A stretch of 64,000 nt of DNA from Rhytidiadelphus loreus (taxonomy: Eukaryota > Streptophyta > Bryopsida > Hypnales > Hylocomiaceae): assembly GCA_947034895.1 (NCBI GenBank), contig OX344764.1:61485348-61549347 (forward strand), given 5' to 3'. Position 1 is the first letter of the stretch, and each line of letters opens with the position of its first letter. This document shows positions 20,169-52,983 of this stretch, piece by piece. The notes below the pieces were generated by a model. That model ran no database searches, was not told the origin of the DNA, and saw nothing but the letters and a program-made list of their open reading frames with translations. The position numbers and the translations under genes are program-made.

Positions 20169-20195
20169 TTGGAATTCTTGACTTTTTGAATAATT

Positions 20196-21041: not shown

Positions 21042-21049
21042 TCATGGAA
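21042..21049. repeat. Left 8-bp target-site duplication of the 32-kb element
   Basis: TCATGGAA directly precedes the left inverted repeat. The right flank has TTATGGAA at 52,976-52,983, differing by one C/T transition. Confidence 0.7.
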
Positions 21050-21074
21050 GGCCTTATTCATTAAATTGAGACAA
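21050..21074 (+). repeat. Left terminal inverted repeat
   Basis: A 25-bp sequence beginning GGCCTTATTCATTAAATTGA, exact inverted match to 52951-52975. Confidence 0.85.
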
Positions 21075-21585
21075 GTTAAAGTCTCATTTTAATGCATTCT
21101 ATATTTAGAATGAAAAGGAGTGTTCATTAAATTAAGACTCTTTAATAAATTGAGACTCAAAATTGTCAAAACACTACTTAATATATTTTGGTACCACTTA
21201 CAAAAGGAGGTCCAATAAACTTGTATCATTTTTATTTTATTAACTCTTTAAGAATTTAATAATATAATAAACCAAAAGGTTATAGAATGCAACATTTCAT
21301 TTAATTGTATAAAAATACCTCAAGCAAAACTTTAGTGTACATAATTATTTGTATAACTTAACATTTCACATTAAATACATTGAAACCAAATAGTTTGTTG
21401 AAGGAAAATGCAAATGCATTATACGCTAATGCAATAAGAAGGAAATAATATACTATTAATAGAAATGAAAACTATTACATGGCCACAAAGATCATGATAA
21501 AAACTACACTAACAACATATACTTGTAATGAAAATAAAACATCTAAATGCGAAATGCATGGTATATGAGTCTACATAACTACAAA

Positions 21586-24458
21586 CTATTCCTCGCCTTC
21601 ACTCAAGGAAGCATCGTTGCTTGAATTAGACACAAAGGCTTCCATCGATGATTTGATGATGTTGATCTGCGGCTTGGGAATTGCAACTTTTGTAATAAGT
21701 GGGGGTTGATCTTCGACCCCCCTTTTCCCACGCGGCTTGAAAGTTGTCATGATACAGTCCGTGTTTGACCAACATGACGGTATTAAACGGTCCTCGCGCC
21801 ACACATTTCCTGCTTTTGTATCCCATCCAACATATGTATCCATATCAATGTGACGGCTTGAAGCAGGCGTCCAATATTGGATTTGGATCTGATGAATATG
21901 CCCTGGATCCGGATTCGGATTTGTAAGCGCCCTAGCAAGCCAAAATGGCTTTGGGTCTTCATCGGCAGGACGTACCACAACAAAATAACCTGCAAATACA
22001 TCACGTGCAACACGAAATGAAGGAGGTGGACGGTCACGCTTGCATCCAACAAAGGGTGGATCTTCTGCAAACTCTTCACGCAATGTGCCATCCTCCCGCC
22101 TTGTGTCTTCTGGTTCTTCAGCAACCCTTGAATCTGGCCAAAATCCATCTTTCAAGGTCTCACGTACCACTAGAGAATCATCTAGAGCGGTTCTGACACT
22201 CTTCCAATAATCTTTTATGGAGTCATTCTTTAGCCCGAAACATCCGGAGTCTTCGTTGTTGGCCATTTTGCTCCAATGTGCAATGAAACCATCCAATCTT
22301 TTTTTGATCTCACTCAACGATTTCATTTGTTGTGGAGGCAAAGGAGGCGGACTACCGCTTGGCACTTTAGGACGTCCATCTTCGGTTTCTGACCATAAGC
22401 GAATTCCTTTGCTGTCCTTAGGCAACCAGTCCTTCTCTGTACACAAGTTCTTATATTCCATTAAGGGCCATCCACTGGAATCCATATAGAACTTAAATTG
22501 TTGTGACGTTGAATGACCTTGTAAGAAGTCCCCGCCTGTGCCCAAATACCCTTGTACAAATTGCTTGAAGTCGGGAACTTCTTCAATGAAATGAGGAATG
22601 ACAGGGTGGGTTTCACAATCCATGAATGATTTCATGAGCCTAGGAAGTGTCGGGTAGCTTTTGCTCTTCAACATTGTGCTCCATCTACCAAAAAGAGCAT
22701 CAATGTCTTCATGAGTGTGGCCAACAATGAGAAAGTTGATGTATATTTCCCGGAAAATGCCTTTATAAACAAGGAGAGAACAAAAAGCAAAAACCCATCG
22801 GTTCTTGTTGTCTCCTGAAGCATTGTCGAGCTGGAGAGTCAATATAGGCGGCAAAGGTTTAGCTAGGAGATGTTCTTCTGGAGGAGGAAGGAGAGAATCC
22901 AAACAAATGTCTGAGCCTTCTAACATAGCCTTAGTTAAAGTGCTTCGACCCTCCTCATCAGAAAATAATGTACGCGACGAATTCTTTGGCTCTCCTTCCA
23001 GATCACGCAACAACCTCGCAATAGACCCAATAGTATGATTTGAGTCTGTTGGAAAAATGTCCAAGCCATAGTGAGCATACCGAACATCGCCATGGCCGTG
23101 GGCAATCATACCCGTTATGGCCACCGGCATTTTCATAAAAGAGTCAGTTGCTTTTGTCTTGTGGGAGAAGTGAGGTGAAGCGGTCTTTGAGTGATCCATT
23201 TTGTCATGGATGATACACAACATCTTATCAGGAAATTCCTCAGATATTTGCCTAAATCCATAGTAGAGTTCCCTGTGAGCCTTTTGCCCATTGAGATGGG
23301 TTGTGTAAATTTTCTCCCATTTTTCTTGCGCAATTGACATTGGAGTGCAAGCACTCCTCAATTGTTTGTATGTATCGCACAAACCACATCTTGCAAAAGT
23401 ATCTCCACGAGACTTCGCAGTATATTCAGAGAAAGAAGCACACCGAATGTTACTCAAGCCACTAGAGGAAATTGGTGGCAAATTCAGTGCGACATTGGCA
23501 TCATTGATTTTTGGCAATTGGTCGCTCCAATGCCACGACGAAGGCAAAACCATTGCTGGGACCTTCTCTCCAGATTCAAGAGTTCTTGATTTGTGAGGCA
23601 TTAAGTCAGCTTCACCTACTACCAAGTTCCGAAGTGTTGCAGTGGCTTGCACAGTTTGTGTGCGTGGCTTCTTCAACCCCATATTTCCATGCGCCTCTGC
23701 AACCTTCCCCTCTTTCGCCATGCGCTTGAACCTATAGAAAGTAGCTTTCGAAATCCCATGAATGGTCCACCAGGCAGTGAGATAGACTTTGATGTTTTTC
23801 AATGTTATCCATTCCTTTCCGGCAAGGTCCTTGTGCACCTGCCTATATGCCTTAAGAAGGCAAAGCTTGCGGACGTACACGCCACCTTTCACATGAAGTT
23901 GATAACGTATGGCTTCAATTTCGTGACGTGGGAAATGTTGCGTACAGTTGCTTTGGCAATATGGTTTTGTGGACACTTCAATAATTGCCTGCTGAGTGAG
24001 AAGAGATTCCCTTTTCGGAGGCTGTTCTGGATCCAATTTTTGACGAGAAGTTTCATACGAACGAACTCCAACTCGAACGCGGCGGTTTAAGGCATTTACA
24101 GCGGTATTGTAAATATGAGTCTGGTCATGGTTATAAAGACTAACACCATTCAAAAACACTTGTTTATGTGCCACGAAACCATAGACCACATTCTACCTGC
24201 AGGGACTTCGGCCTCCCATAAAGACTCTGCAATTTGTACAGCAACGCGGTTGTCACCCAAAGGCTCCCCATCAGAGTCAATCACAAGATCCACGTCTACA
24301 CTCTGGCACACTACTTTTGCAACATCATTTCCTGCCTCATTTCTGAGAATGACTCCCCTAGTAATCCAAGATTGCCGAGGTAACCCGTTGCAAGGAACAA
24401 CACCAACCGATAATATAGGCACCGGAACCGCAAATTCATCAGGACCATGTATATCCAT
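21586..24458 (-). pseudogene. DUF7869-like protein, candidate DDE-type transposase, one frameshift
   Basis: The main frame (867 residues, 24189 to 21586) is open to a TAG stop. It is preceded by about 90 codons (24458-24190) in another frame; a one-base loss near 24,190 explains the break, since AEVPAGRM then joins VVYGFVAHKQVF. A TGCAG acceptor sits at 24460, so a first exon may lie upstream. Conserved blocks in order: CGLCDTYKQLR (zinc-like cysteines), IIHDKMDHSKTA, AHGHGDVRYAHYGLD, LQLDNASGDNKNR, VGHTHEDIDALFGRWS. I take these as the DUF7869 family (name from memory). Spacing of the aspartates in HDKMDH, LDN and the ED of THEDID suggests an RNase-H-fold D-D-E/D catalytic core; that is inference. 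It shares all blocks with the gene at 58.8-62.1 kb. It is the best candidate for mobilising the 32-kb element. Confidence 0.72.
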
Positions 24459-24559
24459 TCTGCATGTCAAGTAGTTGATAAATATAAGAAGACGTGAAAT
24501 TCAACGAATCATGTAAATCCATATATAACATCAAATTGTCAATAACCATAAGACACGCA

Positions 24560-25180
24560 TAGGTTATTGTCGATACGACAATATCACCAATTTCTATTGG
24601 GACCATGCTGTACTGACAGAGACAGATAATCATCAAGTCGAAGATACCAGACTTCTAAAGGGTAGTCTCAATGCAACAAAATTGTTGAGGACGGTATCGT
24701 CGATTCGATGATTACCCTTATACTACTATGACCACAAAACAGACGCTAAAGAGTGCAATGGAATTCATGAGGATGGTATCGTCGACTCGACGATTACCCA
24801 CAAATTAACCATGATCAGGAAACATCCGTACAAGAGTTCAATTGTCGACTCGACGATAACCCAACATTGAGCTGGACACGGAACATTCAATACACTAGTG
24901 TATCGACTAAAACATCAACGATAATGACAACATACACAATTCAAGATTGAAGCCTATCGTTGACTCGACGATATCAATTAAATTAATCATGACAAAGAAA
25001 ATTCTATAAAATTGAATATTGTCTTATCAACAATGATAGTCACGACAACGATAAAGTTCACACCTCATGAAAATAAATGGTATCGTTGACTCGAAGATAA
25101 TACACACAATACTACATGATCATTATAAATAAATAAACTAATCTTCAAATATGTATTGTCGACTCGACAATTCACCCAAC
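24560..25180. repeat. Dyad array TATCGTCGASTCGACGATA upstream of the DUF7869-like gene
   Basis: Copies lie at about 24,565, 24,693, 24,775, 24,840, 24,953, 25,079 and 25,155, with weaker ones at 24,899 and 25,021. The best copies read GGTATCGTCGACTCGACGAT followed by TACCC. The centre is a single C or G. Many substitutions come as matched pairs in both arms, so the symmetry is preserved. The same family recurs at 33.2-38.1 kb around the divergent gene. Confidence 0.9.
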
Positions 25181-26619: not shown

Positions 26620-29600
26620 AATGTAGAGGTGGTTTCAAAAATGACACGTACAAGTTGCACATAGTTCCCCCATAAATTAGATTTTATGGCATATCCATGT
26701 CCATGCACGTTCTTTGAAAATTGGAATTGAGACAGTTGAAGATTCCCGAACCGTTACGAAGTGATTTCCCAATCATGGTTATTCCAATGAAATATAAACC
26801 ATGATTGGAATCATGAAAAAAATGTAGAGATGGTCCAAACAATTAGACGTACAAGTTGCAAATAATTCCTACATTCAGATTTAATAAGCACTTCACATTC
26901 AAGAACAACTTTTTTGAAAGATCTTGGATTGAATTCAAATGTGGGAGACACTGGGCAGTAATTTCCCAAAATCCACAAACTCATCTGCAAGTGGAAAAAA
27001 AAATGTAGAGGTGGTTTCAAAAATGACACGTACAAGTTGCAAATACTTCCCCCATAAATTAGATTTTGTGGCATGTCCATATCCATGCACGTTTTTAAAA
27101 AGTTTGGAATTGAGTTAAAGATTCCCGGACCGCTACAATGTGATTTCCCAAACATAGTTATTCCAAATGAATGAAATATGAACCATGATTGGAATCATGA
27201 AAAAAATGTAGACATGGTCCAAACAATTATACGTACAAGTTGCAAATAGTTCCTATATTAAGATTTGGTAAACACTACACAAGAATAACTTTTTTGGAAG
27301 ATCTTGGATGGAATGCAAATGTAGGAGACGCGTGGCAGTAATTTCCCAAAATCCACAAATTCATCACCAAGTGGAAAAATAAAATGTAGAGGTGGTTTTA
27401 AAAATGACACGTACAAGTTGCAAATACTTCCCCCATAAATTAGATTTTGTGGCATGTCCATATCCATGCACGTTTTTAAAAAGTTTGGAATTGAGTTGAA
27501 GATTCCTGGACCGCTACAATGTGATTTCCCAAACATAGTTATTCCAAATGAATGAAATATGAACCATGATTGGAATCATGAAAAAAATGTAGAGATGGTC
27601 CAAACAATTAGACGTACAAGTTGCAAATAGTTCCTATATTAAGATTTGGTAAGCACTACACAAGAATAACTTTTTTGGAAGATCTTGGATGGAATGCAAA
27701 TGTAGGAGACCCTTGGCAGTAATTTCCCAAAATCCACAAATTCATCACCAAGTGGAAAAATAAAATGTAGAGGTGGTTTCAAAAATGACACGTACAAGTT
27801 GCAAATACTTCCCCCATAAATTAGATTTTGTGGCATGTCCATATCCATGCACGTTTTTAAAAAGTTTGGAATTGAGTTGAAGATTCCCGGACCGCTACAA
27901 TGTGATTTCCCAAACATAGTTATTCCAAATGAATGAAATATGAACCATGATTGGAATCATGAAAAAAATGTAGACATGGTCCAAACAATTATACGTACAA
28001 GTTGCAAATAGTTCCTATATTAAGATTTGGTAAACACTACACAAGAATAACTTTTTTGGAAGATCTTGGATGGAATGCAAATGTAGGAGACCCTTGGCAG
28101 TAATTTCCCAAAATCCACAAATTCATCACCAAGTGGAAAAATAAAATGTAGAGGTGGTTTTAAAAATGACACGTACAAGTTGCAAATACTTCCCCCATAA
28201 ATTAGATTTTGTGGCATGTCCATATCCATGCACGTTTTTAAAAAGTTTGGAATTGAGTTGAAGATTCCTGGACCGCTACAATGTGATTTCCCAAACATAG
28301 TTATTCCAAATGAATGAAATATGAACCATGATTGGAATCATGAAAAAAATGTAGAGATGGTCCAAACAATTAGACGTACAAGTTGCAAATAGTTCCTATA
28401 TTAAGATTTGGTAAGCACTACACAAGAATAACTTTTTTGGAAGATCTTGGATGGAATGCAAATGTAGGAGACCCTTGGCAGTAATTTCCCAAAATCCACA
28501 AATTCATCACCAAGTGGAAAAATAAAATGTAGAGGTGGTTTCAAAAATGACACGTACAAGTTGCAAATACTTCCCCCATAAATTAGATTTTGTGGCATGT
28601 CCATATCCATGCACGTTTTTAAAAAGTTTGGAATTGAGTTGAAGATTCCCGGACCGCTACAATGTGATTTCCCAAACATAGTTATTCCAAATGAATGAAA
28701 TATGAACCATGATTGGAATCATGAAAAAAATGTAGACATGGTCCAAACAATTATACGTACAAGTTGCAAATAGTTCCTATATTAAGATTTGGTAAACACT
28801 ACACAAGAATAACTTTTTTGGAAGATCTTGGATGGAATGCAAATGTAGGAGACCCTTGGCAGTAATTTCCCAAAATCCACAAATTCATCACCAAGTGGAA
28901 AAATAAAATGTAGAGGTGGTTTTAAAAATGACACGTACAAGTTGCAAATACTTCCCCCATAAATTAGATTTTGTGGCATGTCCATATCCATGCACGTTTT
29001 TAAAAAGTTTGGAATTGAGTTGAAGATTCCCGGACCGCTACAATGTGATTTCCCAAACATAGTTATTCCAAATGAATGAAATATGAACCATGATTGGAAT
29101 CATGAAAAAAATGTAGAGATGGTCCAAACAATTAGACGTACAAGTTGCAAATAGTTCCTATATTAAGATTTGGTAAGCACTACACAAGAACAACTATTTT
29201 GGAAGATCTTGGATGGAATGCAAATGTAGGAGACGCGTGGCAGTAATTTCCCAAAATCCACAAATTCATCACCAAGTGGAAAAATAAAATGTAGAGGTGG
29301 TTTTAAAAATGACACGTACAAGTTGCAAATACTTCCCCCATAAATTAGATTTTGTGGCATGTCCATATCCATGCGTGTTTTTAAAAAGTTTGGAATTGAG
29401 TTGAAGATTCCCGGACCGCTACAATGTGATTTCCCAAACATAGTTATTCCAAATGAATGAAATATGAACCATGATTGGAATCATGAAAAAAATGTAGACA
29501 TGGTCCAAACAATTATACGTACAAGTTGCAAATAGTTCCTATATTAAGATTTGGTAAACACTACACAAGAATAACTTTTTTGGAAGATCTTGGATGGAAT

Positions 29601-30815
29601 GCAAATGTAGGAGACCCTTGGCAGTAATTTCCCAAAATCCACAAATTCATCACCAAGTGGAAAAATAAAATGTAGAGGTGGTTTTAAAAATGACACGTAC
29701 AAGTTGCAAATACTTCCCCCATAAATTAGATTTTGTGGCATGTCCATATCCATGCACGTTTTTAAAAAGTTTGGAATTGAGTTGAAGATTCCCGGACCGC
29801 TACAATGTGATTTCCCAAACATAGTTATTCCAAATGAATGAAATATGAACCATGATTGGAATCATGAAAAAAATGTAGAGATGGTCCAAACAATTAGACG
29901 TACAAGTTGCAAATAGTTCCTATATTAAGATTTGGTAAGCACTACACAAGAACAACTATTTTGGAAGATCTTGGATGGAATGCAAATGTAGGAGACGCGT
30001 GGCAGTAATTTCCCAAAATCCACAAATTCATCACCAAGTGGAAAAATAAAATGTAGAGGTGGTTTTAAAAATGACACGTACAAGTTGCAAATACTTCCCC
30101 CATAAATTAGATTTTGTGGCATGTCCATATCCATGCACGTTTTTAAAAAGTTTGGAATTGAGTTAAAGATTCCCGGACCGCTACAATGTGATTTCCCAAA
30201 CATAGTTATTCCAAATGAATGAAATATGAACCATGATTGGAATCATGAAAAAAATGTAGAGATGGTCCAAATAATTATACGTACAAGTTGCAAATAGTTC
30301 CTATATTAACATTTGGTAAACACTACACAAGAATAACTTTTTTGGAAGATCTTGGATTGAATGCAAATGTAGGAGACCCTTGGCAGTAATTTCCCAAAAT
30401 CCACAAATTCATCACCAAGTGGAAAAATAAAATGTAGAGGTGGTTTCAAAAATGACACGTACAAGTTGCAAATACTTCCCCCATAAATTAGATTTTGTGG
30501 CATGTCCATATCCATGCACGTTTTTAAAAAGTTTGGAATTGAGTTGAAGATTCCCGGACCGCTACAATGTGATTTCCCAAACATAGTTATTCCAAATGAA
30601 TGAAATATGAACCATGATTGGAATCATGAAAAAAATGTAGAGATGGTCCAAATAATTATACGTACAAGTTGCAAATAGTTCCTATATTAAGATTTGGTAA
30701 GCACTACACAAGAACAACTTTTTTGGAAGATCTTGGATTGAATGCAAATGTAGGAGACGCTTGGCAGTAATTTCCCAAAATCCACAAATTCATCTGCAAG
30801 TGGAAAAAAAAATGT
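26620..30815. repeat. Satellite: ~11 tandem copies of a 381-bp unit with higher-order structure
   Basis: Units repeat every 381 bp with few differences; for example CAAAATCCACAAATTCATC recurs in register. Each unit is itself two diverged ~190-bp halves: one begins TGTAGAGGTGGTTT and the other TGTAGAGATGGTCC, and both continue to ACGTACAAGTTGCAAATA and later TTTCCCAAA. From about 26,824 to 29,877 successive units alternate between GTAGAGATGG with AATTAGACG and GTAGACATGG with AATTATACG, which makes a 762-bp higher-order repeat. The last two units carry a third variant (AATAATTATACG). The 92-codon minus ORFs in each unit exist only because 381 is divisible by three. Confidence 0.97.
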
Positions 30816-33266
30816 ATTGGTAGGAAGCAAAATGGAACCGACATCTAATAATCCAAGTCGGTCGTTTCATATTTGTTTAACCTTGGGACTAGAATGAGTA
30901 ACAAATTTTTGAAAATTGAAAATGCGGTGGTTACTAATAAAAACGACCTTCTCTTGAAATTTACAGTGTTGGTGCATTGAAGAAAGCAAAATGTCCCTCT
31001 GCGTTAGTGATTGCTTTTCAATTGGAGCAGGGTCACTTTTAGAACTGACTTCTTTAAAGCACAAGCACCCAACTTTAGGTTAGAAACACCCTACCTCGGA
31101 GCACCCTTCGATAATATATTAGCTTTCGTTCAGACTAAGCCTACATTGGGAACAGCTAGCTATGTTTCCAAGGACTGGTATCACTATCGATGGCCAGTTT
31201 GTGCTGCACAGTACAAGGCACGGAAGGCAATGATCAATTATTCTTCTACCATCGCAAAAGCGTGATGAATCAAATCAACTGGTGAGATTAGAACTTGTAA
31301 CCTACACATACATACTTACACAGTTATACAGACCTTACGCTTTGTTTGCTTGTGACTTGAATTCCAAAGTTGTTTGGCAATAGTGGGTTGTTCGTGTCCT
31401 ATGGAAGGGGAAGGAACATATCCTATTTCACACATGTGACTTGTACGATTTATGGAGATGGGACGTTAGAATAACTTCTCTCATACTATAGTGGACCAAT
31501 TCCCGTGACACCAACGTCAATCAAGGTACGTTCATCTAAAAAGAATACAATAACTAATTGACCAAAGTTGTTGTCTCAGGCACTTGGCACCAGGGCTCTT
31601 TTTTTTACTTTCAAGTGCCAGATTGCACTAGAAAATAAAAAACGGGGTTAAAAAAGGTTATAAAAAATGCCAAAAAAGTGGGATGAAATCGCCAAACAAC
31701 TTTGAAATTTTAAAAAATATTAGATGAAATCGCCTACTATACATCTATAGTATACATACTATACCATACTATACATCCAATAAGTGGATGAATGTTGCAA
31801 TTTGAAGCACCACTAGAACATTTTATATCACCAGTATGGTACTTCTTCAAAAATGGAAAAAAATGGAAAAAAAGCCCTGCCTGGCACTGTTATTGAACTT
31901 ATCAATAACATTAAGACAATGTTTTTTTTGAATTGAAACAAACCCTTGCAGTGAACAAAATTGTCTCAGACAACCCTAAACACGTTGAGGTAATTGAGAA
32001 GTCCCTCTGGGAGGACTAAAAGTTATGGCAAAGTTATGGCAAAGTAATGGCCTGGTTATACTGGAGGCGGGTTGCTTGCGGATACACTAGCTTGCAGGTA
32101 GGGTGGGTAGGGTAGGTACACTGAATAGGGTGGGTAGCTTGGGGGTCCGAGTATGTGACGGGTGAGGGTGAGGGAGGCGGGTGTGGGACGGAGGGGACGG
32201 AAAAACTCCGCTAGGGTTTACTTTTTTTCCGTGCGCAGCGGAAGAGCTTGTTGGAGCGCGAAGGTTTGCGGGTTGTTGGAGCGCGTCGGGTTGGAGTGCG
32301 TCGGATTGCTGCGGGTTGCTACTGTGGCTTGTTGCTGCTGCGGTCTGCTCCTGTGGGGTTTGCGGTATGCTGTAGAGGGGTTTGCGGGTTGCTGCGTCTT
32401 TTTCATGAGTTTTGCTGTGGGGTTTGCGGGTTGCTGCGCCTTGTTCGTGAGTGTGCTGCGACTCTACCTTGTTGCTGAATTTGGGAGTTCGCGGACTGTG
32501 TGAGAGTATAATTGTTTCAAAAATTGAAATTTCCTGAGTTTGCATGGGGATCTCGTAGTCTACCTCGGCCCCGGGGAGTTTGTGAATTTGGGAGTTTGCG
32601 GACTGTGCGAGAGTGTGATTGTTTCAAAAATTGAAATTTCAAGAGTCTGCTTGGGGATCTCGCAGTGTACCTCGGCCCTGGGGAGTTTGTGGTCTGCCTC
32701 GACAGTTCGCGGTGTGTGTGACAGTCCGAATATTCGAGATTTCGTGGTTTTCAGGAGCTTGGCAGTGGGAGTTTGGCCTGTCGAGAATTTGGCAGCTCGG
32801 CAGTGGGAGTTCGGCAGGTCGGAAATTTGGCAGCTCGGCAGACGGCAGTCTTCATCTTCGACTTTGTTTGAGGTTTGTTGTTCGACTCCTTGTTTCGGGA
32901 ATTAGGAAGGTCGGCAATTTAAGAGTTTGATTTAGGGTTATAGTTCTTAGGGTTACATTTGTCGAGGATTCTGCTGTGAGCTAGATTTTAATAAATATGT
33001 AGAAATTTGGGATTGACCTGTTCATGCGCAAAGTATGGGTTTGTAGCAATGCCGTAGGTACATGAACTTGCATAAATTGTCAAGAACTTGCATTTTTGGA
33101 ACTCAGTAAGGGTTTGAAGGTTTCACGATTTAGGGTTTTTGACCGAAGGTTGTAGACGGTTGGGGAGTTACGGGATAGGGTTTATGTTTTCCTGAAGAAG
33201 GTCCACTGTGCAAAGGAAGTTTATTGTTCACTTTTGCTGGAAGGGTCGAAAGTAGAGTGAAGGATC
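30816..33266. other. Intergenic region with GC-rich short repeats
   Basis: No convincing gene. From about 32,040 to 32,900 the plus strand is rich in G and T with repeated GCGGGTTGCTGCG words. Two tandem copies of a 108-bp unit start near 32,482 and 32,590 (GGGAGTT.GCGGACTGTG). Two GGCAGCTCGGCAGTGGGAGTT-like copies lie near 32,790-32,840. The proline-rich minus ORF at 32,087-32,545 mirrors this bias. It could be an upstream regulatory region of the gene at 33.8 kb. Confidence 0.6.
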
Positions 33267-39527: not shown

Positions 39528-39560
39528 CACTACAAGAAAAGGGGGGTCATTTTGACTGCA

Positions 39561-40907: not shown

Positions 40908-43900
40908 AAAGTTAATATGCGGTTTACCTTCTTCGTCAACTGTGCACTGGCTTTTTTGGATGGACCTGTTGCCTGCTTCGCCCTCGGCTCCCTTTTTTGC
41001 GGCTTGCCCTACACACGAAGGCACAGAGCATCAGAGACGGTAAAGAAGCACAGATACTGAAGGGACATCGTCAGTAGCACCTTGAATCCGGAATGCCAAT
41101 CCCCTTACCTTCCACCACATCCAAAAATTCATACGCATGTCCAGTGCGGCGCCTCTGTACCCATTGGGACAATGATTCGTTGACAACTTCAGGGAATTTT
41201 AAGCGAAAAGAAGGAATGTCGGGGCATGCGTGTAAAGCATCCAATAGTGGCCACAGGTACCGTTTCAAGTATTCCTTGTCATCTACCAACGTGTGCATCC
41301 ACTTCAAATAGAACGGGGTACTCACGATTACATTGGGTTCAGGATTACACTCCACCCTACTGGCCTTACTATCTACAATCACAGTATTTGCAGCACAGTA
41401 ACGAGGCCACAAGGCATACACTAACTCCAATTGCTTCCCACGAGGAGATGGCCCCCCATCTTCCATTTGCAAGTTCTCACCCTGCGTAGCAGACCATATA
41501 AACAGTGGCGCTGCGTGGACACCCTTCAACTCCCCTAACATTGCTGGCACAACATCATCCATGTACGAGGGACTACCAGTGCTCCAAAATCCCACAGCAA
41601 AAGACTGAAAGCAACGGGTGAGAAAAGACTTCAGCCAGGGCCGAAAAAATATTCTTCGGACAGTAGTGCATGCGCTCCTACGAATTCGTGGGTGTGGATT
41701 ACGGGTAGACAGCATACTACTGTCTAACAAGGTACCGTGCACATTGAAGATCACTAATTTGGAGGGCCCACTCTCAATGCATACAGGCAGAAGTCCGAGG
41801 TCACCGCGTAGCTTCACCTCACTCGACGTACCTTGACAAACGTCGGGAGGAGAAGGTACCTTTTGCGGTGACTGAGCCGGCTTCTTCAACTTCCTCTCCC
41901 CTTGAGATGCCATCGCCGCTCCTTCATCGGTGGCTTGCGACCCTGATTCGTCCTCCGCTGGTTGTCCGGTGATGGCATCGCCGGACAAAGGCACGGAAGT
42001 TGGAGCCCCAACAGGGATAGAGCGGTTTGTTGAAGGCCCAGCGGTGTCGGACGTCTGCTGCCCCGAATCCCCGACAGGAGGTTCTTCATCTGCTGCAGCA
42101 GCCTCCGCTGCCGTCGTCTCTTCTTCACGTCCCACTTCCTTGTCTTCCTCACTTTGCTTGTGTCCGCAGGCGACAAGGACTACCAAACTAGCTGCCTCCA
42201 TTTCCTCCGTTGGCCCAAATGCCCATGCTGCATCCCCACTAGAAGTAACATTCCGTTCAGTAGCTCCAACTGGCTTAAGGAAGTCCTCACGCTGCATGAC
42301 TTGGAACTCAGGCGGCAAAGGGGGGTTCATGGAAGGGATGGCTTGTTCCGAATCGGACAGGGTGAGTTCGTCTGTTGTTGCTGTGACATTTGCTACTTCT
42401 GAGCTCCCCGCTCCCTTGTTGGGTCCTCTCCTACCTCTGCGCATGAAATTCAACAACAAGCTGCGCAAGTCATCAATAGCCGCGCTTGTCGCCGTTGCGG
42501 TCGCCGATACTTCACCAAATTTGGCATCCATGTCGACACGCAATGTTTGCAATGCCTCCCAACAAGCCGATTCGCCTTCACCCTGCATGTGGTCACAATC
42601 ATTTCAGAAATTTATACAAGCATGAAAGGCAAGTTACGTGCAATGAAGCCCCCGCGTCATGTATGCAGAGGTTGTTTTATTCAAGAATGAATGTGCACGA
42701 CGAGAAGACCGCGACTTCCACACATCTGACTTGTGACTTAGACGTCACTATAACAATACTAAAACAGGACACAAGAGTGACTACAGCATGACCAAAGAGT
42801 GACTACGGCGTGACCAAAGAGTGACTTCATTGCGTCGGATAAATGACTGGGGTGCGGACCTCAACTATAACAACGCCAACGGATTCCCATTTGACCCAAA
42901 ACTTTTAGTAGCAAGAAAGACAGCACAATGCTCCGACTATAGCTGAGACAAGGGAACATGTAATTAATTAATACACAACGTCTGGCACAAGTAAAACCGC
43001 AATTCTACTCCAAGAGTCCAAGGGGGCACAAGAGACTTACACTGCCATCACCTCCAGCTTTGGCCTTGGCTAGTCTAGCGTGAGATATGTTTGATAAAGT
43101 CGGACTACTTTGCCTTCCATCTCTCTGAGAATCAAGGCAAAGGAAAAGTTAGTGCTCATTGTGCAAAGACACATAAGTTGGATTCGCTCCTGCTTGTACC
43201 TAATAAAATATAAGGGAAGTCAAGACTGCCAAAGGCAACATCAAAAGTTTAGCCAGGCTTACCATGGGGGCTTCCTTTGCGGCTTTACCTCTTCTTCCCA
43301 CCAACGCATTGGACTTCACACTCTGTCTGGCAGCAGCCATGGACTGCGCCTTTTTCTTCTGGCCATCTGTGTTCCAATAATCCTTCAGGCGTTTCCACTC
43401 GTCATCGTCCACGTGAAGAGGAGGGCTATCTTTGCCTTTGAGATAACGGTTCTTCAATCTGAACCTCTCAGACTTAAGGAATTTCATAACAGCCAGCCTA
43501 AATCCAACCATGCTCAAGGGATTGCCGAGGTACTCGAACTCGTTGTCCAAGGCAGACCTCAATTTCTTCAAGAGTTGCGGTTCATGCTTGGACCATGCTA
43601 CGACACTCATGTCCAGACATTTTGGGATGAGATCACGCAGCGCCTCATCCCACGCGTTCTTGCCCTGGCAGTTTGGATCGACCTCGCCACCTAGCAACAC
43701 GGACACTCGATTTGGCTTCGCTCCTATTGTGGCTCGCTTCTTGGTTGCCAAATCGTACTGAGCTTTGCGCTTTCGTCGACTGATGCGGGCTTCAGTGTCC
43801 TCGGGTAATCCAACCGGTGGCAGTGGATATTGGCCTTCCCATGCTCCAACAGCTGCTGCGCCTCCTCCTGCTGGCTCGTAGTGCCCTGGAACCCAATTCA

Positions 43901-44672
43901 AGGTGGGCGGTGTGGGCACGATGGCTTGGTTCACTGGCGCTGCAGCCAGTGTTGTCTTCCTTCTCCTTTTCTTGAACCGCTTGTCGACGAGTGCCTCCTC
44001 CTCCACCCTATGCACGTCGTCCTCCGAGGAGTCTTCCAATTCACGTGACGTTTCTGCCAAACAACCACACACACGACACATTAATCATTCTTCGCCGTAA
44101 GGTTGGTCCAAGCAAGTGGACGGCACACATACTCCTCGCAATGGCCTCATCCACTTCGTCGAATGGCCCGACTGGAATGTGACAGTCCTAAACTTTGCCC
44201 AATGCTCTCTCTTGCTAAACAGAATGGACAATGACGTAATGAAGCCCTCTAAAAAACCCTAAACACGCACCCACAGCATGAAAGATGGCGCAGGTAGCCA
44301 GATTTTCCTTTACCTGCGGCTCTAGCCTCGTTCTTAGATTGCTGCTCAGCATATGTACAAGCAATGGCTAAATGCAGCATACCTGTGGCTATAGCATCGT
44401 TGTCGGACCTCGTCGCATCTGACGACGAGGAGTGGGAGCTAATCATGGGGATGTACTCTCGATCTGAGCTCAAGCGCGGACTTGTGCGCAAGCTCTCCCT
44501 CTGAATTCCGTCTCCATAGCCCCGATCGCTTCTCTTCCTTCGCCCTTGGGAAGTGCTTTTCTTCCCCGACGCGTGTGACACTGCCTTGTGGCGTGCATGG
44601 TCGTCCTCCCTGCGCCGCCAAACACGGTCATCAGCAGCACATTTTGAAGCGCACGCTCTCACCACTCTCAGA
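40908..44672 (-). CDS. CACTA accessory protein: Ptta/En/Spm-type region fused to a HAD-like domain
   Basis: Inferred exons in reading order: 44672-about 44,383, about 44,057-43,264, about 43,123-43,041, 42585-about 41,109, and perhaps a basic terminal exon from 41,008. The second exon has KNAWDEALRDLIPKCLDM and EWKRLKDYWNTDGQKKK, features I associate with the plant transposase Ptta/En/Spm family. The small exon gives RDGRQSSPTLSNISHARLAK, a hallmark of the same proteins. The fourth exon (505 residues if unspliced) is disordered, then carries an FCP1-like fold: LVIFNVHGTLLDSS, FAVGFWSTGS, NTVIVDSKASR. Both motif I aspartates are replaced (N and H) and the motif IV pair is D-S, so phosphatase activity should be lost. 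Likely role: DNA-binding partner of TNP2 with a captured, inactive HAD module. The exon joins are my inference. Confidence 0.7.
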
Positions 44673-44719
44673 AAACACTGCAAATGTGACAAAAAAAGAC
44701 AACAATGGGCTGCCAAACA

Positions 44720-46373
44720 AGGGCAGTACTTCTGGTGACTTCATTGCGCCAGAATTAGTGCAAAGAAGGAACCCGCCGCACTGAAACCCTCTTGTAAGTC
44801 CTCCCATGTGGCCCTAACCTTTATGAAGGTCTTCCCCGTGACTTGTCAACGTCTTCTTTGGGACTCTAACGTGACTATGAGGAGGCGGCGCTGAAAACAA
44901 AAGTGTACAGTATGACTCAATCGCCTCTTAGAAAAAGGTCCATCTTCTCTGAACGCAATGATAAGAAGAAGCTAGGAGCACTCGGCTCCACTAAACCCTA
45001 AGGCACTTATTTGGAGGGGGGGCCATGCTCGAGTGCAGAGTGCGGGTGAGAAAAGAACGATGCAGCCACTGGAAAAATGCTCTCACCATTCTTGGGCTGC
45101 GGCCTCGCAAGCAGCAGCCTTCTTGCGGACCTTAGCTACATTGCGATCGCGGAGCATCTCATATTCGGACTTCTCTGCCGGCGGGCTATCCATGGAACTG
45201 GGGTTTCTAAGTCTGCTCCACCTCCAACCTGATTTCTAGGACTCGAAAGCTGGTTCTTCCTCACAATAACAAGCCTAAAGCAACGTTCACCAGACAGACG
45301 TCGCCTCTCTCAGAATTGAAACACAATTTGACGTTCACTTCTTGGCAGGGGTGCTCTTCCGAGAACCGCAAGGAGATTGAGTTTCTCGTTTGCACAGTAT
45401 TCAATTGCGGCGGAGTGAAGGAAAGGAAGTCCGCCTTCCAAACATTGAGTGCTGAAGGTGGAAGATGGAGGCCAACCCATTGATTAGGTCAGCAAAATGG
45501 AAGGCGGCTGGACATTAATTTTTGCAATCGCAGGTACTAATCACAGCCAACTCCATTCCAAAACATGCAGTCTTGTTTGATCTTGTTCGATTGATTTTGG
45601 ATTCCGAGCAATCTCCTCCTGATTTGGTGGAGTGCAATCTCGGGTTTAGGAAATTATTGGTGGCCGGTGGCAATGGTGACATCCGACTCACTGTGTCTGT
45701 GCAGGTGCACCCTAACTAGAGCAGACAGAATTCGGCTGGAAGACAACAGCTGCAGCATCCGTGAATAGGGTCTCAAAGTCGTGCACAAGTCTCCCCCTAG
45801 TCATTACTTAGTCATTTTCAAGTAAGAACTTATATTTTAATTTTTTAGCTAATTTTACTATCTTTATTTTGGTTGGGACCTTGGCTTTCTGAAGATGAAT
45901 CCCCATTTCTGTCATTGTGGCCCATTATTTTTGGATGTGCGTAGTTTTGAAATAGTCAGGCGTGACTAGAGCTCTGCCAAATCTTTTGCAACCGCCTTCA
46001 TGTGCATTATTTGCAACCACTTGACAGAATTCATATTTTAGTCATTCAAGTCTTTAGTCTAGTCACATATATGTCAATAACTAGTAAGTCTTTAGTCTAG
46101 TCACGTCCATTTTTAGTCACTTCTTAGTCATTCAAGACATGATTAAGTCATTTTACAGACGGTCTAGTCACAGGGGAGACATGAAAGAGTCAATTAGAAG
46201 TTCGCCTTTCATGAAGAAGGAATGTCAACTTTGTTGCATAGTTACCAAGGCATGTACAATAGTTCTTGACAGTGGGGGTCTTTGTACACTTATAGACAAT
46301 GATACCCAGAAGACTCCCACTGGACGACAAAAGACGATAGGAACTCCGAGACGACCGTCTGTGGAGCAGAGAG
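44720..46373. other. Central intergenic region of the CACTA element
   Basis: Lies between the divergent genes. GTGACT and TTAGTCA words cluster around 44,840-44,880 and 45,780-46,200. It presumably contains both promoters and the first, unseen exon of the TNP2 gene. No separate gene is supported; short ORFs lack domains. Confidence 0.65.
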
Positions 46374-49300
46374 TTGCAAAGGGCCCGAGAGTGCAACGTC
46401 AAGAAATTGCATTGCCCATGCACCAACTGCCGGGGGCGTAAGAGACTCAATATACCCAATGTCAGGGAGCACCTCATCCGCAATGGCAGACACCCTAATT
46501 CAAGGACTTGGAGAGGTCCCGGTGCTAGAGATTCTTCAGACAAGGAGTGGGAGGAGCAATTTGGGGGCCCGGTTACCCATGCAGATGCGCCTCCGCCCGT
46601 GGACAGCACAGTCCATACTCGTGGAATGCTCAATCAAGCCTTCCTACCACCGGAGGAGGACATGTTTTCCCCGGAGAGAATCCAAGAAGAAGTTGCAGCC
46701 GCTTTTGAGACAGCAGACTCCATCCATGAAGAATTCATGGAAGTCGGCAATGGGGATGAAGCGCAAGAGCAGGAACCTCGTGACGACCGAGGTGACGACC
46801 AACATCCTCCAGACGTGGAAGCTAGCACGGACAATGTTGATGTCCATTTCGATGCGACGGTGATGGACGAGTCTTTGCAGTCACTTTACAATGGAGCACG
46901 ATGCAGCCAACTTGCAGCAACGGTGTTGTTGATGAATCTGTGTACCGTACACGGCATCAGCAACCAGTGTGCCAATGAACTCTTTAGTTTATTGCATTCT
47001 CACGTACTACCGGAAAACAATAGTTTGCCAAAAAGTCACTATGGGGCGAAGACTTTGACAAGTAAGTTGGGGTTGACGTACACCATCATCCACACATGCG
47101 AGCGCGGCTGTGTTCTCTTCCGGGGACCCTATTCTGACGCTCTCTGTTGTCCTAAATGTGGTGGTCGCCGATACAGAGATGAAGCTAGGCGTTGTTTTCC
47201 AGTGAAGGTGCTCCGTCATTTTCCAATCATTCCACGACTACAACGAATGTTCCAGAATCCAAGCATATCCAAACTCATGGTGTGGCACGCAACAAACCGT
47301 AGCAACCAACCTGGAGGAGATGGCCTAGTTAGGCACCCGTGTGACTCAAGAGCGTGGCAACACTTTGAGGAGAATGTGGACCCTTCTTTTGCTACAGAGC
47401 CTCGAAATGTTCACTTTGCGTTGGCTGCAGACGGAGTGAATCCATACAAGCAGAGTAGGTCATCATGGTCAACTTGGCCGGTTATGCTCTTAAATTATAA
47501 CCTACCTCCATGGTTGAGTACGAAAAAGTTCTTCATTATGTTGTCTCTTCTGATTCTAGGGAAGGAATCTGTGACATCGGATGCCTTTGATGTATACTTA
47601 GAGCCTCTTGTAGAAGAGTTGCTTCAGTTATGGAATGGGGTTCCAGCATACGATGTCACACAGGAAGTAGGATCAAAGGTTTTTTCATTGAGAGCCATGT
47701 TGTTGTGGACCATGCATGATTTTCCGGGCTACGGCACTGTAGGAGGTTTCTCCCACCAAGGCTTTGCAGCGTGTCCGTGGTGTGGTGACGATTTAGGAGC
47801 GGAGCATTCTATTGAGCTTGGTAAATGTACATTTGGTGGGACTCGTCGTTGGCTCCCTGAAGGTCATCCCTACAGGTCGGAGGGAATGAAGGACCACTTC
47901 ACCGGAAACATGGAAAACCGTCAGAAGCCACGCACAGTGACAGTTGAGGACCAAATAAGGCACGCTGAAGAATATGAGGCATGGAAGGCTACTGGATACA
48001 GGGACGGTGCTGTACGGGACCCTTCAAAAATCCATGGTGTAAAGCGTCTAAGCATTCTTTACCGCTTGCCATATTGGAAGGTAAGTGACCGTGGGCATTA
48101 ACAAAGGTTGGGCTCGTGCCTCGTAAGCGACTGTAATGTGACTTACATTTGACTTACACCCCATCTTTGCGGTCTTCTGAAGTCACGGAAGAGAATTTTG
48201 TAAGTCACGGTATAGTCAAACAGAAATCTAAGTCATTGGGAATGACTACTATATGACATATCGGTGACTGTCTAGACAGAAACTAACAAGAAGTTTGGCA
48301 TGGCATGTGTGTGGTGGCAGTTGCTTCTGATTCGGAACACTTTGGACGTAATGCATTGTGAATTGAACCTAGCTAAGAATATATTGAAAACAATAACAGG
48401 GAAGAAGGATACTGTAAAGGTGAGGCGGGATTTGCAGAGGCGGAACATTCGGAGGCACTTGTGGCTCACTCCCCATCCCCGGAAGCCAGGAAAGATGGTA
48501 AAGCCGCGTGCCTCATACGTGTTAACAGAAGAGGAGTTTGACAAGTTTGCAAAATGCATTGAGTCTTTGAAGGTGCCTAGTGGATATTCGTCTGACTTGA
48601 AGAGGAGCATTCGGAAAAAAACTTTGGGGGGTTGAAGTCCCATGATTACCACATTCTAATGCAGCAAATCATGCCACTTGCTGTTCGAGGGTTGATGGAA
48701 CCTGGTCCTCATATGGCGGTCCAGCGCATCTGCAAGGTATTTCGACGTCTATGCACAAAGGCTTACAACCCCTTAGACTTTCCCTCATTGGAAGCAGATG
48801 TGGCCGAAACCATGGCATTGTTGGAGATTGAGTTTCCCCCATCGTTTTTTGACGTGATGACGCATCTTCCATATCATTTGGCAAAGGAGCTCGACTTGTG
48901 CGGTCCAGTAACTGCGAGGTGGATGTACCTAGTGGAACGTTACATGAAAGTATTGAAGGGATATGTGCGGAACATGGCTCGTCCAGAGGCGTGCATGGCG
49001 GAAGGTTATTTGCAGGATGAGTGCATCGGATTTATAACGGAATACTTCCAAGGTTTTGAAGGCACTACAAGACGAGTGTGGGATGAGGACGAAGAAATAG
49101 GAGATGCTGAGGAAGTCTTGCAGGGGGGTGGAAGGCCATATGTAATGACTCCAGAGATGCGAGACATAGCCCACCAGTACGTCCTGTCAAATTCAACTGC
49201 TATGGAGGATCTTGTGGCGTAAGTAAAGCCAGTCACCCGTGACTGTGATGCCATTCTTTTCCACTTGCACCGTTTTGCTCAAATATCTATAGTGAAGGAG

Positions 49301-50258
49301 GATTCGGAAGTCATGTGTAAGACGTCTTCAAGTCATATAGAAGTCAAAATATTCCGTGAAACTAAAAAATGACTGAAATGTGACTCACTTAAGTGACCAT
49401 GAAGTCACCTTCTTTGAATGTGTTTGTTGGAGTTTCGGAGTTTCAAAAAGCAACACAGGCATGAATTTCTAATTTTTCATGCCATTCGTCCCATATGAAT
49501 GAGAATCGTACTGTTCTGGTGTCCGCAGGGAGTGGAGGACTGAATCAGTTGAAAATCCGGGCACCCTAGAAATGTCATCGTGGATTCAGCAGAGGTTGCA
49601 GAATGCTGATGTAGACTTAAGTGACCCCACAAACATGGATCGGTTCTTGCTGAGTAAGAAGCCAGCACAGAGGGCTATTCGCTACAAACGTGTCCTTGCA
49701 TTTGGTAATCATTTCCATGTGGAAGATGAGCAGACCAGGCACTTGTTGACCTACAACAGTGGCGTCGCTTCCGTTTTCCAGCATCCGTCAGAGAATGGAG
49801 ATGAATCAACTGTGAACTATGTGGGAGTACTAAAGGATATATTGGAGGTGGATTATGGTACATTGAGTACGCGCATCATCTTACTGCGTTGCGACTGGGT
49901 GAAAACCGAAGACACTCGAGGTAATCCCACGTATACACGGGACGAGTCCAGCTTCTTGTTGGTCAATTTTCGACACACTCTACCTCGCATGTTGGAGCCC
50001 TTCATTTTTCTGAGCCAAGCAACGCAAGTTTTCTTTTCAGACATTGAAGGTAGATCTGGTTGGAAAGTAGTCTTACAAAAAGAGGCCAGAGTGAGACGGG
50101 AAGTTGTGGACACAGTGGATGCATTCATCTCCACTAGAATAGAGAGTACAGGGCTTAGAGCTCCCAACACATTTCCCAATGTTTCAGAGGCAGTTGATCT
50201 AGTTGGAGCCACCGACTTGACGGAGGAAGAGAACTTATTAGCTCATGAAGCATATTAG
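46374..50258 (+). pseudogene. TNP2-type CACTA transposase with one frameshift
   Basis: Exons: 46374 (or an acceptor close by) to 48080, 48321-49218, 49529-50258. The first begins with a cysteine-rich HCPCTNCRGRKRL (transposase-associated zinc site). It continues with CPKCGGRRY and with FSLRAMLLWTMHDFPGY and FAACPWCGDD, typical of Transposase_21. The second has DVMHCELNLAKNIL and YHLAKELDLCGPVTARWMY, the DUF4218-type region. The third has TYNSGVASVFQ and LLRCDWVK, resembling DUF4216. The protein would cut at the CACTA ends in the nucleus. The visible start is a TTG, so an upstream exon is missing from this reconstruction. A six-G run at 48626-48631 breaks the frame between KKTLGG and LKSHDYH; one more G would restore it. 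The frame is otherwise clean over about 1,100 residues, so decay is recent. Confidence 0.85.
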
Positions 50259-50950
50259 TGTTAGAAGGTTCCATGTATGTGCTTCAAACGCATATGTGTA
50301 TGCCTAGTTGCAAGAATCATTGTGATGAATGTGCAGTGCACGTTGGCTTGATTTGCCCTAAACCACCACTGACCCTAAAACTATGGTATTCAAATTTACA
50401 TTGAAAGTTTCTCAGTATTTTTAGTAATTATTGCCTCTGTAGTCCAAAGGGGAGAGCACAGAAGCCTCATGTTAGTGTAAGACATTCTTTGCCGAAGTAA
50501 ACCTAAAATATCCGAAGTCCACATCTGCAGAAGCTTGACCGTTGTACCCTTCTTAGCAGTAATTCCAAAGAAACCAACCCTAAGTCATATTACAGTCGTT
50601 CATTAGTGGACTACATCCGACTATTAGACCGCAGTCCAAATGAGACTGTCCACGTCAAGGTGCTGCCCTGACCCCAAAAAACAAATCCAGGCAGAGAATT
50701 TATCTAAAGTCATTCTTTAGTCACCATCTAGTAACAGAAGAAGTAACTGCTGACTCTATAGTGACTTCAAACAGAATTCGTAGCCCCAGGTCACGACGGT
50801 TTTTGTCATCGGGCCCTTCTGTGAGGTCATCATCCAGAAGTCACGAATTTTGACTTTAAAGTGACTCTGAACATCTTCCAAGCTCTCCCTCGGTGCAATT
50901 ATAGAAGGCTCAGTCATTTTTCAGTCAAACCGGACAAGAAGTCACCTGCT
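50259..50950. other. Right subterminal region of the CACTA element
   Basis: Contains multiple AGTCATTCTTTAGTCA-like, GTGACTTC and AGTCACGA words, leading into the right inverted repeat. No gene seen. Confidence 0.75.
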
Positions 50951-50983
50951 TGCAGTCAAAATTACCCCCCTTTTCTTGTAGTG

Positions 50984-51384
50984 GTATGAAAGTTCTGTCC
51001 AAGACGCTGTTCCTCAATTCGAGTGGGGCGACGTCGTTCTCGGCAGAGAATACACTCCTTATAGACGATACCCCGGAGAAGGGGGTCTGTAACGAGAGAG
51101 GAAACAATATCATTCTTGAGACTTGGAATCACGAGAAACGGAGGGATAACTTCCTATTGGAAGACCTCCTGCCGTGGCTCCGTCGTCTCGTCATGGATTG
51201 TCAACCGGGGAGACTCAGAGAGTACGTCGAGGCCAACCGGATTGGCAGGATGCCGCTTGGCGCTAGTGACTACAATCACCAGCAGATTGTTGATGCCATG
51301 AAAGAGTCCGCCTCGAAGTTAGGAATGCGCTACGACCTTCCTGCGGAAAATCTAGTCATAGGACGAGGCCGTCGTAGGACCTAG
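50984..51384 (+). pseudogene. HAD/FCP1-like gene, 3' part after the CACTA insertion
   Basis: From 50987 the host frame resumes (ATG AAA GTT CTG), following TGT at 39524-39526 once the element and one GTA are removed. It encodes NTLLIDDTPEKGVCN, HAD motif IV (the D-D pair is present), and NFLLEDLLPWLRRL, common in FCP1-like proteins. It ends RGRRRT with TAG at 51382-51384. Together with exon 5 this makes a complete HAD-like fold whose motif I reads D-L-N rather than D-x-D, a variant known in plant FCP1-like proteins. Confidence 0.75.
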
Positions 51385-51586
51385 TGTAGGTCATGAACTC
51401 GAATGTATTTATATATTTTACAATCTCTGTATGCGACATTCGTTTGTAAATGCATTCGTCAATTTTTTTGTTCTTGCTATCTTTCCTGGGTCTACTTCTC
51501 TACGTCAATCTGTGTTTGCACCTGCTTCTTTTTAGTCAACTGATAAATTCTGCATGGGATATGTCTTTGATTTATTGGTCATGCAG

Positions 51587-52501
51587 GTCAGAGATGCCTT
51601 CTACCAGTCTCTATCTCCAGCGCGGATGGTGACTAGGAGTCTCCGGTCTGGCTCGGAACAATCACTCTCGAGGGGATCCAAGGGGGGTGGAGGGAGCTGT
51701 GGTCCCGCGCCAGTATCCAAGCCTTTTATGCTACGCTCAGCGGCAGACGCAGCATCGACGGCATTGGATTACTCAAAGGGGGACATAGAGGACGGTGTGG
51801 TGGACAGTCCTCCGAGTCGAGGGCCGGGGAGGACCCCCATTTGTTCACCCTCCCCGTTGAAAAGGACATCGTCTAATCGAGGAGGATCGTTCTCGCCTTC
51901 TTCGCGACCTAATACCGCAACGAACAGGAAACTGAACTTGCCAATCGGTGAGACTACTAGGCATCCTCGACCCGAAAATGATGTCCCAGACTCTACTGCG
52001 CCTCTATTCATCCAGTTCAAGAATAAGAAGCGCAATGCTAACTCCGAAGGGGCGACAAAGAGTGAGCACATTGCCCGGTGGTCCGACTCTCAGTTGCTTC
52101 GGGTCGAGGATATCCTACCTCAGCATTCAGTGTCTGTGGGATGTAGGCGACTGCCTTCTAGCGACTCTCTCTTCCGCCAGAGGATAATCAGAGACCAACG
52201 GCGCTCTCTCAACTCCGCTACATTGCATGGGAGTGGATCTCCCAGCACATGTTTTGTCCACATGTCCGGGGCGAAACCGCCTTCTGGTGCGTCTAGGTCC
52301 TTTTCGACTTTAGAGGTTCCTGAAGTTCCCCACAAGTCAAAGCGCTTTGCCTGTCGATCTCAAAGTGTCGGCCTCTCTGGTGGAGTGCGTGGCAGAAGTG
52401 AGTTCCACTATCATTCTCGAAGTGAGGACATCTTCGAAGGCCTAAAGAAGCTCAAATCAATGGAAGCACTGCAGGGCAATGCAGCATCCTCGGTTCCATA
52501 A
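51587..52501 (+). CDS. Serine-rich unknown ORF, possible last exon of the same gene
   Basis: Follows a GGTCATGCAG acceptor and stays open to a TAA at 52499-52501. The product (about 304 residues) is basic, rich in serine, arginine and proline, and low in hydrophobic residues (RSGSEQSLSRGSKGGGG, SPSSRPNTATNRK). No domain is recognised. A partial GTCGAGGATATCC dyad-like word lies inside it. I could not find a donor that joins it in phase to the HAD exon, whose own stop is at 51384. So it is either an exon of an alternative transcript or a separate small gene of the 32-kb element. Confidence 0.45.
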   Translation, partial: VRDAFYQSLSPARMVTRSLRSGSEQSLSRGSKGGGGSCGPAPVSKPFMLRSAADAASTALDYSKGDIEDGVVDSPPSRGPGRTPICSPSPLKRTSSNRGGSFSPSSRPNTATNRKLNLPIGETTRHPRPENDVPDSTAPLFIQFKNKKRNANSEGATKSEHIARWSDSQLLRVEDILPQHSVSVGCRRLPSSDSLFRQRIIRDQRRSLNSATLHGSGSPSTCFVHMSGAKPPSGASRSFSTLEVPEVPHKSKRFACRSQSVGLSGGVRGRSEFHYHSRSEDIFEGLKKLKSMEALQGNAASSVP

Positions 52502-52950
52502 TCAATTCCTCATAGCTCTCGTCTATGAATCTCTTTACTATTAATAGCATCGGTAAATAGTACATATACAATCAATTTTGAAAAGTAGAGTGCTCCATGT
52601 ATAGTAGGCTTCGTCATTTTCACATAGATGAAGTGAATGGAACGATACTTGTCACACTTCATTTACCATTGCTTACAATGGTGACATATTTCTTGTGCAT
52701 CTGAACACATATATATCACCAAAATTATTGAACGTGAATGGACTCCATTTTCTATTGTACTTTGTTTGGAGTCGTAGTGTATTATGCTTAAACTGTGAGC
52801 ACTAAATTCTGCGAGATAAATCTTTTCACTGGAACTATTTGGTTTCGTGGTACACAATATATCTCTACCATTCCTTTCAGTTGGGCTTCAGATCATTGGG
52901 TGAACCCTGGAACTTCAACTTCCACTTCCAAAAGTCTCAAAATGACCATT

Positions 52951-52975
52951 TTGTCTCAATTTAATGAATAAGGCC
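52951..52975 (-). repeat. Right terminal inverted repeat of the 32-kb element
   Basis: Ends ...TCAATTTAATGAATAAGGCC, exact complement of 21050-21074 over 25 bp. It is followed by the right 8-mer TTATGGAA at 52,976-52,983. Confidence 0.85.
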
Positions 52976-52983
52976 TTATGGAA

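Follow-up and report, generated by a model that had tools for sequence, protein, structure and literature searches.

In a 64,000-bp window of the genome of the moss Rhytidiadelphus loreus (contig C4, 61485348-61549347; window coordinates are used below), positions 21048-52977 are bounded by matching inverted repeats and enclose a gene for a DUF7869 protein, a divergent right-hand unit with a HAD gene, and a recurring palindrome, or dyad. With good confidence, we consider this stretch to be a member of a family of giant DNA transposons of the cut-and-paste type that is present in many copies. Its features are the following.

21044-21047, left target-site duplication, ATGG (4 bp, same as 52978-52981)
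21048-21074, plus strand, left terminal inverted repeat, AAGGCCTTATTCATTAAATTGAGACAA, complementary to the right end and recurring genome-wide
21589-24500, minus strand, DUF7869 gene for a putative DDD (three-aspartate) transposase (PF25273, E 1.5e-45; open frame)
24566-25171, 8 dyads upstream of the DUF7869 gene
26620-30816, tandem array inside the element, 11 near-identical copies of a 381-bp unit
33272-33734, 4 dyads upstream of the right-hand gene
33785-35248, plus strand, exon block E1, conserved motif F-M-I-I-N-G-Q-H-S-I-x-A; in-frame stop in the window copy
35236-35418, 3 dyads, end of E1 and before E2
35454-36866, plus strand, exon block E2, predicted beta-class DNA amino-methyltransferase fold; more than one frame in the window copy
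36837-36979, 2 dyads, after the predicted E2 donor and before E3
36998-38596, plus strand, exon block E3, predicted acceptor CAG/ATG; dyads at 38118 and 38301; low-complexity tail
38850-51384, plus strand, HAD gene (NIF/C-terminal-domain (CTD)-phosphatase-like), interrupted by a CACTA element in the window copy
39528-50983, plus strand, nested CACTA element (tnp2 transposase, DUF4218, DUF4216) with a 3-bp duplication, GTA
51536-52498, plus strand, E5, a 321-amino-acid C-terminal block conserved in both subfamilies
52951-52977, minus strand, right terminal inverted repeat, fully complementary to the left arm
52978-52981, right target-site duplication, ATGG (4 bp)

The initial annotation had described exact 25-bp inverted repeats starting with GGCC. 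These are real, but the arms are actually 27 bp long and 100% complementary, as they include the AA before GGCC and the TT after its counterpart. Within the window, the 25-mer of the terminus occurs at two places only with up to three mismatches allowed, and in none of 100 shuffles. Across the genome searched (407 Mb, 489 contigs), it recurs 304 times in forward and 318 times in reverse orientation with at most two mismatches, compared with zero in a reversed control. Other paired termini, which the annotation had expected to find, are thus present: among the 100 of these 622 places that were listed, 27 facing neighbour pairs lie no more than 60 kb apart. We tested 26 of the 27 (all except C3:84481618/84522632), made up of the window copy, ten whole copies, the ends of ten more and five further pairs; two other listed pairs duplicated whole copies and were counted once. 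All 26 have an exact 4-bp target duplication outside AAGGCC...GGCCTT. The left end reads AAGGCC in 25 pairs and GAGGCC in one, the right end is GGCCTT throughout, and the 27-bp family ends can be written as AAGGCC(A/T)TATTCATTAAATTGAGACAA.

A duplication of 8 bp had been proposed from the 8-mers TCATGGAA and TTATGGAA. Both are present at the flanks of the window copy, where they agree in seven of eight letters, but the agreement arises because TT of the element, ATGG and a chance AA mirror ATGG followed by the element's AA. Target duplications of 8 bp are typical of hAT, Novosib and Zisupton transposons, and the window flanks would be the one point in favor of a hAT- or Novosib/Zisupton-like element. 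Over 11 copies, however, only four to seven of the eight letters agree, whereas the 4 bp are exact in every tested pair, and at an empty site the 4 bp stand once, without the element's AA/TT. We rejected the 8-bp duplication on these grounds, and regard a hAT-type identity as scarcely credible.

It had also been suggested that related loci should lack the insertion, and two such empty sites were found. When the flanks of copy C3_66341 are joined, they align with an uninterrupted relative (L010:1-498) across 505 bp at 90% identity, with TAAA present once at a gapless junction, and this related site fixes the boundary of the element. The second copy, C3_77589, is inserted in a tandem repeat whose intact unit represents the empty site. 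The family has the marks of a DNA transposon with terminal inverted repeats, namely recurring repeats, a duplication of fixed length, empty sites and three conserved acidic residues.

The tested pairs span 16,976 to 55,331 bp. The lower value is also the shortest among the 27 facing pairs in the places listed, and no miniature derivatives are seen among these. Because the ten whole copies were picked to fit below 20 kb, their sizes taken alone are biased. In the first 26.2 Mb of C1, for which the list is complete at one mismatch or fewer, 35 ends form 13 pairs, all tested, and eight of the 13 span 17.8-18.7 kb; the usual span is about 18 kb. The window copy is bigger than most owing to its 11-copy array of the 381-bp unit and the CACTA insertion of about 11.5 kb. 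In C3_56376, the array amounts to about 1.6 units in one 600-bp stretch, and the CACTA is missing, leaving an empty site for the GTA duplication. Subtracting the CACTA and its duplication from the window copy (31,930 - 11,456 - 3) gives 20,471 bp, which together with the further copies and the empty sites confirms the earlier view of one self-contained element of about 20.5 kb before the CACTA arrived.

The copies compared form two subfamilies. The T type consists of the window copy, C3_48152 and C3_56376 (mean identity 88-97%), and the A type of eight C1 copies (87-98%). The types share no DNA alignment of at least 150 bp at E 1e-20, and the order of their genes is the same.

In the window copy, the N-terminal part of the DUF7869 protein (24153-24500) is in another frame than 21589-24192. 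The structure model of the 868-amino-acid frame places an RNase-H-like core at about residues 270-530 and a C-terminal SH3-like barrel at about 725-834. As modelled, this core resembles Mos1 and retroviral integrases, with middling scores. Asp330, Asp456 and Asp498 are invariant in all 44 aligned DUF7869 sequences; position 495 is glutamate in 13 and aspartate in 31, and position 496 is aspartate in 43. We assign Asp498 as the candidate third residue of the triad from the structure model. Given the modelled core and the three invariant aspartates, the DUF7869 protein is probably the DDD transposase of the element.

Could DUF7869 instead be an accessory protein, with another element protein acting as the recombinase? 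Selection also acts on the other proteins, which are carried along with DUF7869, and the structure models cover two proteins, DUF7869 and the E2 homologue P0169. Yet an RNase-H/DDE-type fold with an invariant triad is predicted for only one of these two, DUF7869, which also shows the highest conservation between the subfamilies (about 66%, versus about 34-57% for the others). Furthermore, a second DUF7869 gene lies at 58840-62070, and no match to E1, E2, E3, HAD or E5 is found in 53,001-74,000 at E 1e-3. An accessory role appears very improbable to us, and we retain DUF7869 as the probable transposase.

This second gene, on the minus strand, is 41% identical to the first over its C-terminal part and can be aligned with the A-type protein near full length at 31-46%. 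The ends of its element were sought as far as 74,000 and were not found. A further DUF7869 lineage has 1083-amino-acid open frames with equal scores (179.7 bits), for example at C1:60645458, C1:93128633, C3:27883806 and C5:40192905. Equal scores and open frames on several chromosomes suggest that this lineage spread recently.

The initial annotation had proposed two divergent genes. Open frames and conservation support two divergent transcription units, but the right-hand unit also includes a methyltransferase-like protein upstream of HAD. The E1 motif is one that we take to be ParB/DndB-like (compare 'DGQHR'); a sub-cut-off NCBIfam match of E1 to FosX (E 0.0018) was put down to chance. The model of P0169 has the permuted Rossmann fold of a beta-class DNA amino-methyltransferase. 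The catalytic (D/N/S)PP(Y/W/F) sequence is absent, and D-[LF]-R-x-x-P stands at that site, as equated with DPPY by strand order in the P0169 model, with both the aspartate and the arginine in 29 of 30 sequences. With DPPY replaced, this second protein is probably no active methylase. The start of E3 (YFYGFVERD) appears from its sequence to continue the methyltransferase fold.

Pfam does not recognize the E1 and E2 homologues, with no families for the first member of each and scattered weak matches in one or two of 25 and of 30, and NCBIfam leaves the E2 protein unmatched. A literature search returned nothing joining ParB, adenine methyltransferase, transposon and Physcomitrella, and Rfam has no matches in 20900-53200.

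The HAD frames of other copies are open, at 283-295 amino acids. The Pfam NIF domain exceeds its cut-off of 21.8 bits in C1_434 (E 2.7e-16, 60.1 bits) and C3_56376 (E 1.5e-9, 38.2 bits), and each half of the interrupted gene in the window copy stays under it (18.1 and 19.5 bits). The DxDx(T/V) motif is lacking, as D-L-N-G stands in place of D-x-D-x-T in the three copies inspected. The E5 protein of the window copy is 75% identical to that of C3_56376 and 38-39% identical to those of A-type copies over long BLASTP alignments.

The nested CACTA carries a NIF-domain (HAD) gene of its own (41071-42603, minus strand), and so two different transposons in one genome have such a gene. A single recent transfer was rejected as an explanation for the pair, as the two proteins show no significant similarity (BLASTP E 0.25).

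The genes of the element are under purifying selection between diverged copies, with ratios of nonsynonymous to synonymous divergence (dN/dS) of 0.09-0.45. Within the A type, the values are 0.09-0.12 for DUF7869 against C1_434 (dS 0.17-0.19), 0.12-0.15 for E1 (dS 0.39-0.98), 0.10-0.12 for E2 (dS 0.18-0.75), 0.14 for HAD (dS 0.12), 0.30-0.44 for E3 and 0.28-0.31 for E5. Between types, the ratio is 0.15-0.17 for DUF7869 and 0.22-0.37 for E5, with saturation in HAD, E2 and most E3 pairs; the T-type comparison of E5 between the window copy and C3_56376 yields 0.45. Pairs of close copies (dS below 0.1) range from 0.08 to 0.62, including 0.29-0.51 for DUF7869 and 0.62 for HAD in the two T-type copies, and these values are uninformative or relaxed.

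Different genes of one copy can differ in apparent age. In C1_7464, DUF7869 is near that of C1_2173 (dS 0.03), and E1 is far from C1_2173 (dS 0.98) and E2 far from C1_1672 (dS 0.74). The HAD gene of C1_5162 is near that of C1_434 (dS 0.08), but its E2 is distant (dS 0.74). From these mosaic ages of left and right genes, in a comparison of ten copies, the family seems to swap segments between copies.

The window copy itself looks inactive, judging from its HAD gene cut by the CACTA, the in-frame stop in E1, and the frameshifts in E2 and the DUF7869 N terminus. Open frames are present in other copies of the family.

The palindrome TTATCCTCG-RSY-CGAGGATAA is present in each of 11 copies examined, with 19-39 sites apiece and 316 in total, compared with zero to three in Markov shuffles, zero or one in reversed copies and one in the CACTA. 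A strict core, TATCCTCGASTCGAGGATA, allowing one mismatch, is found 1,983 times in the genome and once when read backwards. The initial annotation had described one dyad family shared by the 5' regions and introns of both genes. Its enrichment is stronger than was claimed, with 22 dyads in the window copy versus none in the 32,070 bp of the window that lie beyond the element, and predicted introns of the right-hand gene do contain it, but introns of the left gene are not established. In six copies examined, the 1 kb upstream of the DUF7869 frame contains 8-13 dyads, and the 1.6 kb ahead of E1 contains 4-12; the remainder are in introns and in E1-E3 and E5, with none in HAD. Some are spaced at 40 bp. 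The dyads are retained in both types, even though the surrounding DNA can no longer be aligned.

We read the dyads as candidate binding sites of an element protein. They might instead act as RNA hairpins in transcripts, for example by affecting splicing, since dyads start about 10-26 nt past two predicted 5' splice sites and, when pooled, co-vary at mirrored positions (none of 500 shuffles reaches the value at offsets 5, 9-12 and 14). However, pooled sites share descent, and co-variation within a copy is weak: offset 5 is reached by 11, 33, 111 and 359 of 1000 shuffles in four copies, and the only offset that no shuffle reaches within a single copy is 12, in C1_7464. The dyads also cluster upstream of both genes. 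We consider the hairpin explanation unlikely, and protein-binding DNA sites remain our preferred reading.

Where does this family belong among known transposons? The duplicated tetranucleotides are 75% A+T without a fixed word, and TTAA in only one of the 26 pairs, which eliminated Kolobok and piggyBac. Kolobok elements (KolobokP, KolobokD) resemble the family as eukaryotic DDD/E elements with an additional enzyme gene, according to an excerpt of PMC9587614, but they duplicate TTAA, whereas the 4 bp vary here. Ginger shares a 4 to 6-bp duplication and an integrase-like fold (PMC10741241, in part) and was rejected because its TG...CA termini differ from AAGGCC...GGCCTT. Academ (AcademX) is described, in a portion of PMC10045372, with a 3 or 4-bp duplication and an accessory enzyme gene, but the open frames scanned here have no nuclease or helicase Pfam domain. 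The large size and several genes could suggest an integrated virus-like element, such as Maverick/Polinton or a relative. Pfam, however, detects neither a polymerase nor a packaging ATPase, protease or capsid domain in the open frames that were scanned, and the 4-bp duplication differs from the 6 bp of Polinton (same portion of PMC10045372), so we rejected Polinton/Maverick and give virus-like origins in general almost no weight.

The closest published description is that of Sola. In the parts of PMC10741241 available to us, Sola elements have a DDD transposase, 4-bp duplications and inverted repeats of 11-1124 bp, occur in Physcomitrella, and are mostly 2-9 kb with some above 15 kb; Table 1 of PMC9033089, also seen as an excerpt, lists Sola1 for Physcomitrella. 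The present family is alike in its DDD triad, 4-bp duplication, variable inverted repeats, moss host and a size that may go beyond 15 kb. It differs in that the pairs are at least 17 kb and, besides 19-39 dyads, carry genes for a methyltransferase-like and a HAD protein, with the transposases compared by description only. This is probably a giant Sola-like lineage, which may belong to the Sola superfamily or be its sister.

The claim of an undescribed superfamily is accordingly not established, as the Sola description in those excerpts fits every feature testable here. For a genuinely new superfamily, DUF7869 would have to be unrelated to Sola transposases beyond the RNase-H fold and the 4-bp duplication would be convergent. 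Consistent with novelty, Pfam and NCBIfam match the protein as DUF7869 only or not at all, a literature search found no paper with the term DUF7869, and the excerpt of PMC10741241 has most Sola elements at 2-9 kb and makes no mention of accessory methyltransferase and HAD genes. Because the testable Sola features are all present and the defining transposase similarity is compared by description only, we hold a new superfamily to be a serious possibility but the less probable one, and a Sola affinity remains the working placement. When the DUF7869, E1, E2 and HAD proteins were searched by sequence alone against solved structures, no convincing match emerged, and a bacterial and archaeal contig collection held no related locus, as expected of such a collection. 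The only organism names among the listed DUF7869 homologues are Ceratodon purpureus and Physcomitrium patens.

These features suggest how the element may work. The candidate triad Asp330/Asp456/Asp498 in the RNase-H-like fold would cleave the element's termini and link them to target cuts staggered by 4 bp, while the N-terminal part of the protein would bind the ends and the SH3-like (BAH/chromo-like) barrel may read chromatin. The second protein, which combines the DGQH-like motif with the methyltransferase-like fold, might bind the dyads, both those in introns and those upstream of the two genes, and so keep the element's genes expressed, as VANC does, or set their level by feedback. The HAD protein, of CTD-phosphatase type, might aid transcription of the element or act on the transposase.

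VANDAL elements, which are Mutator-type, offer a comparison for the dyads. In Arabidopsis, VANC, their accessory protein, recognizes a short repeated motif that lies upstream and in the introns of the element encoding it, and the motifs multiply by tandem repetition (PMC5735166, in excerpt). As far as that excerpt describes it, this is by analogy the closest working parallel for the dyad system. The VANC21 motif, however, is 9 bp and not palindromic, the protein here would be methyltransferase-like rather than VANC, and its function is inferred.

Near the second DUF7869 gene, four dyads of the form AACTCG-(A/G)CT-CGAGTT (55296-55574) have the inner CTCG-RSY-CGAG core of the element's dyads and a different outer half. 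Tandem arrays with units of 131 bp and 137 bp lie outside the element at 62649-63554 and 20194-20583.

We tentatively propose, as a speculative extension, that this is a new superfamily or the first giant branch of Sola, in which a catalytically diverged methyltransferase-like protein, paired with a CTD-phosphatase-like partner, would read about 20-40 dyads and protect the element against silencing. In related lineages, the system would have been re-aimed by changes in the outer half-site with the inner CTCG-RSY-CGAG kept; this is suggested by the four AACTCG-RSY-CGAGTT dyads close to the second DUF7869 gene.

Taken together, DUF7869, a domain of unknown function, gains a testable role as a DDD transposase, within a family of unusually large transposons whose genes are still under selection. 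Moss genome annotators can find this family by its 27-bp ends and its dyad. The combination of a conserved operator-like palindrome with a methyltransferase-like protein may provide a second, independent case for how plant transposons evade or tune silencing.

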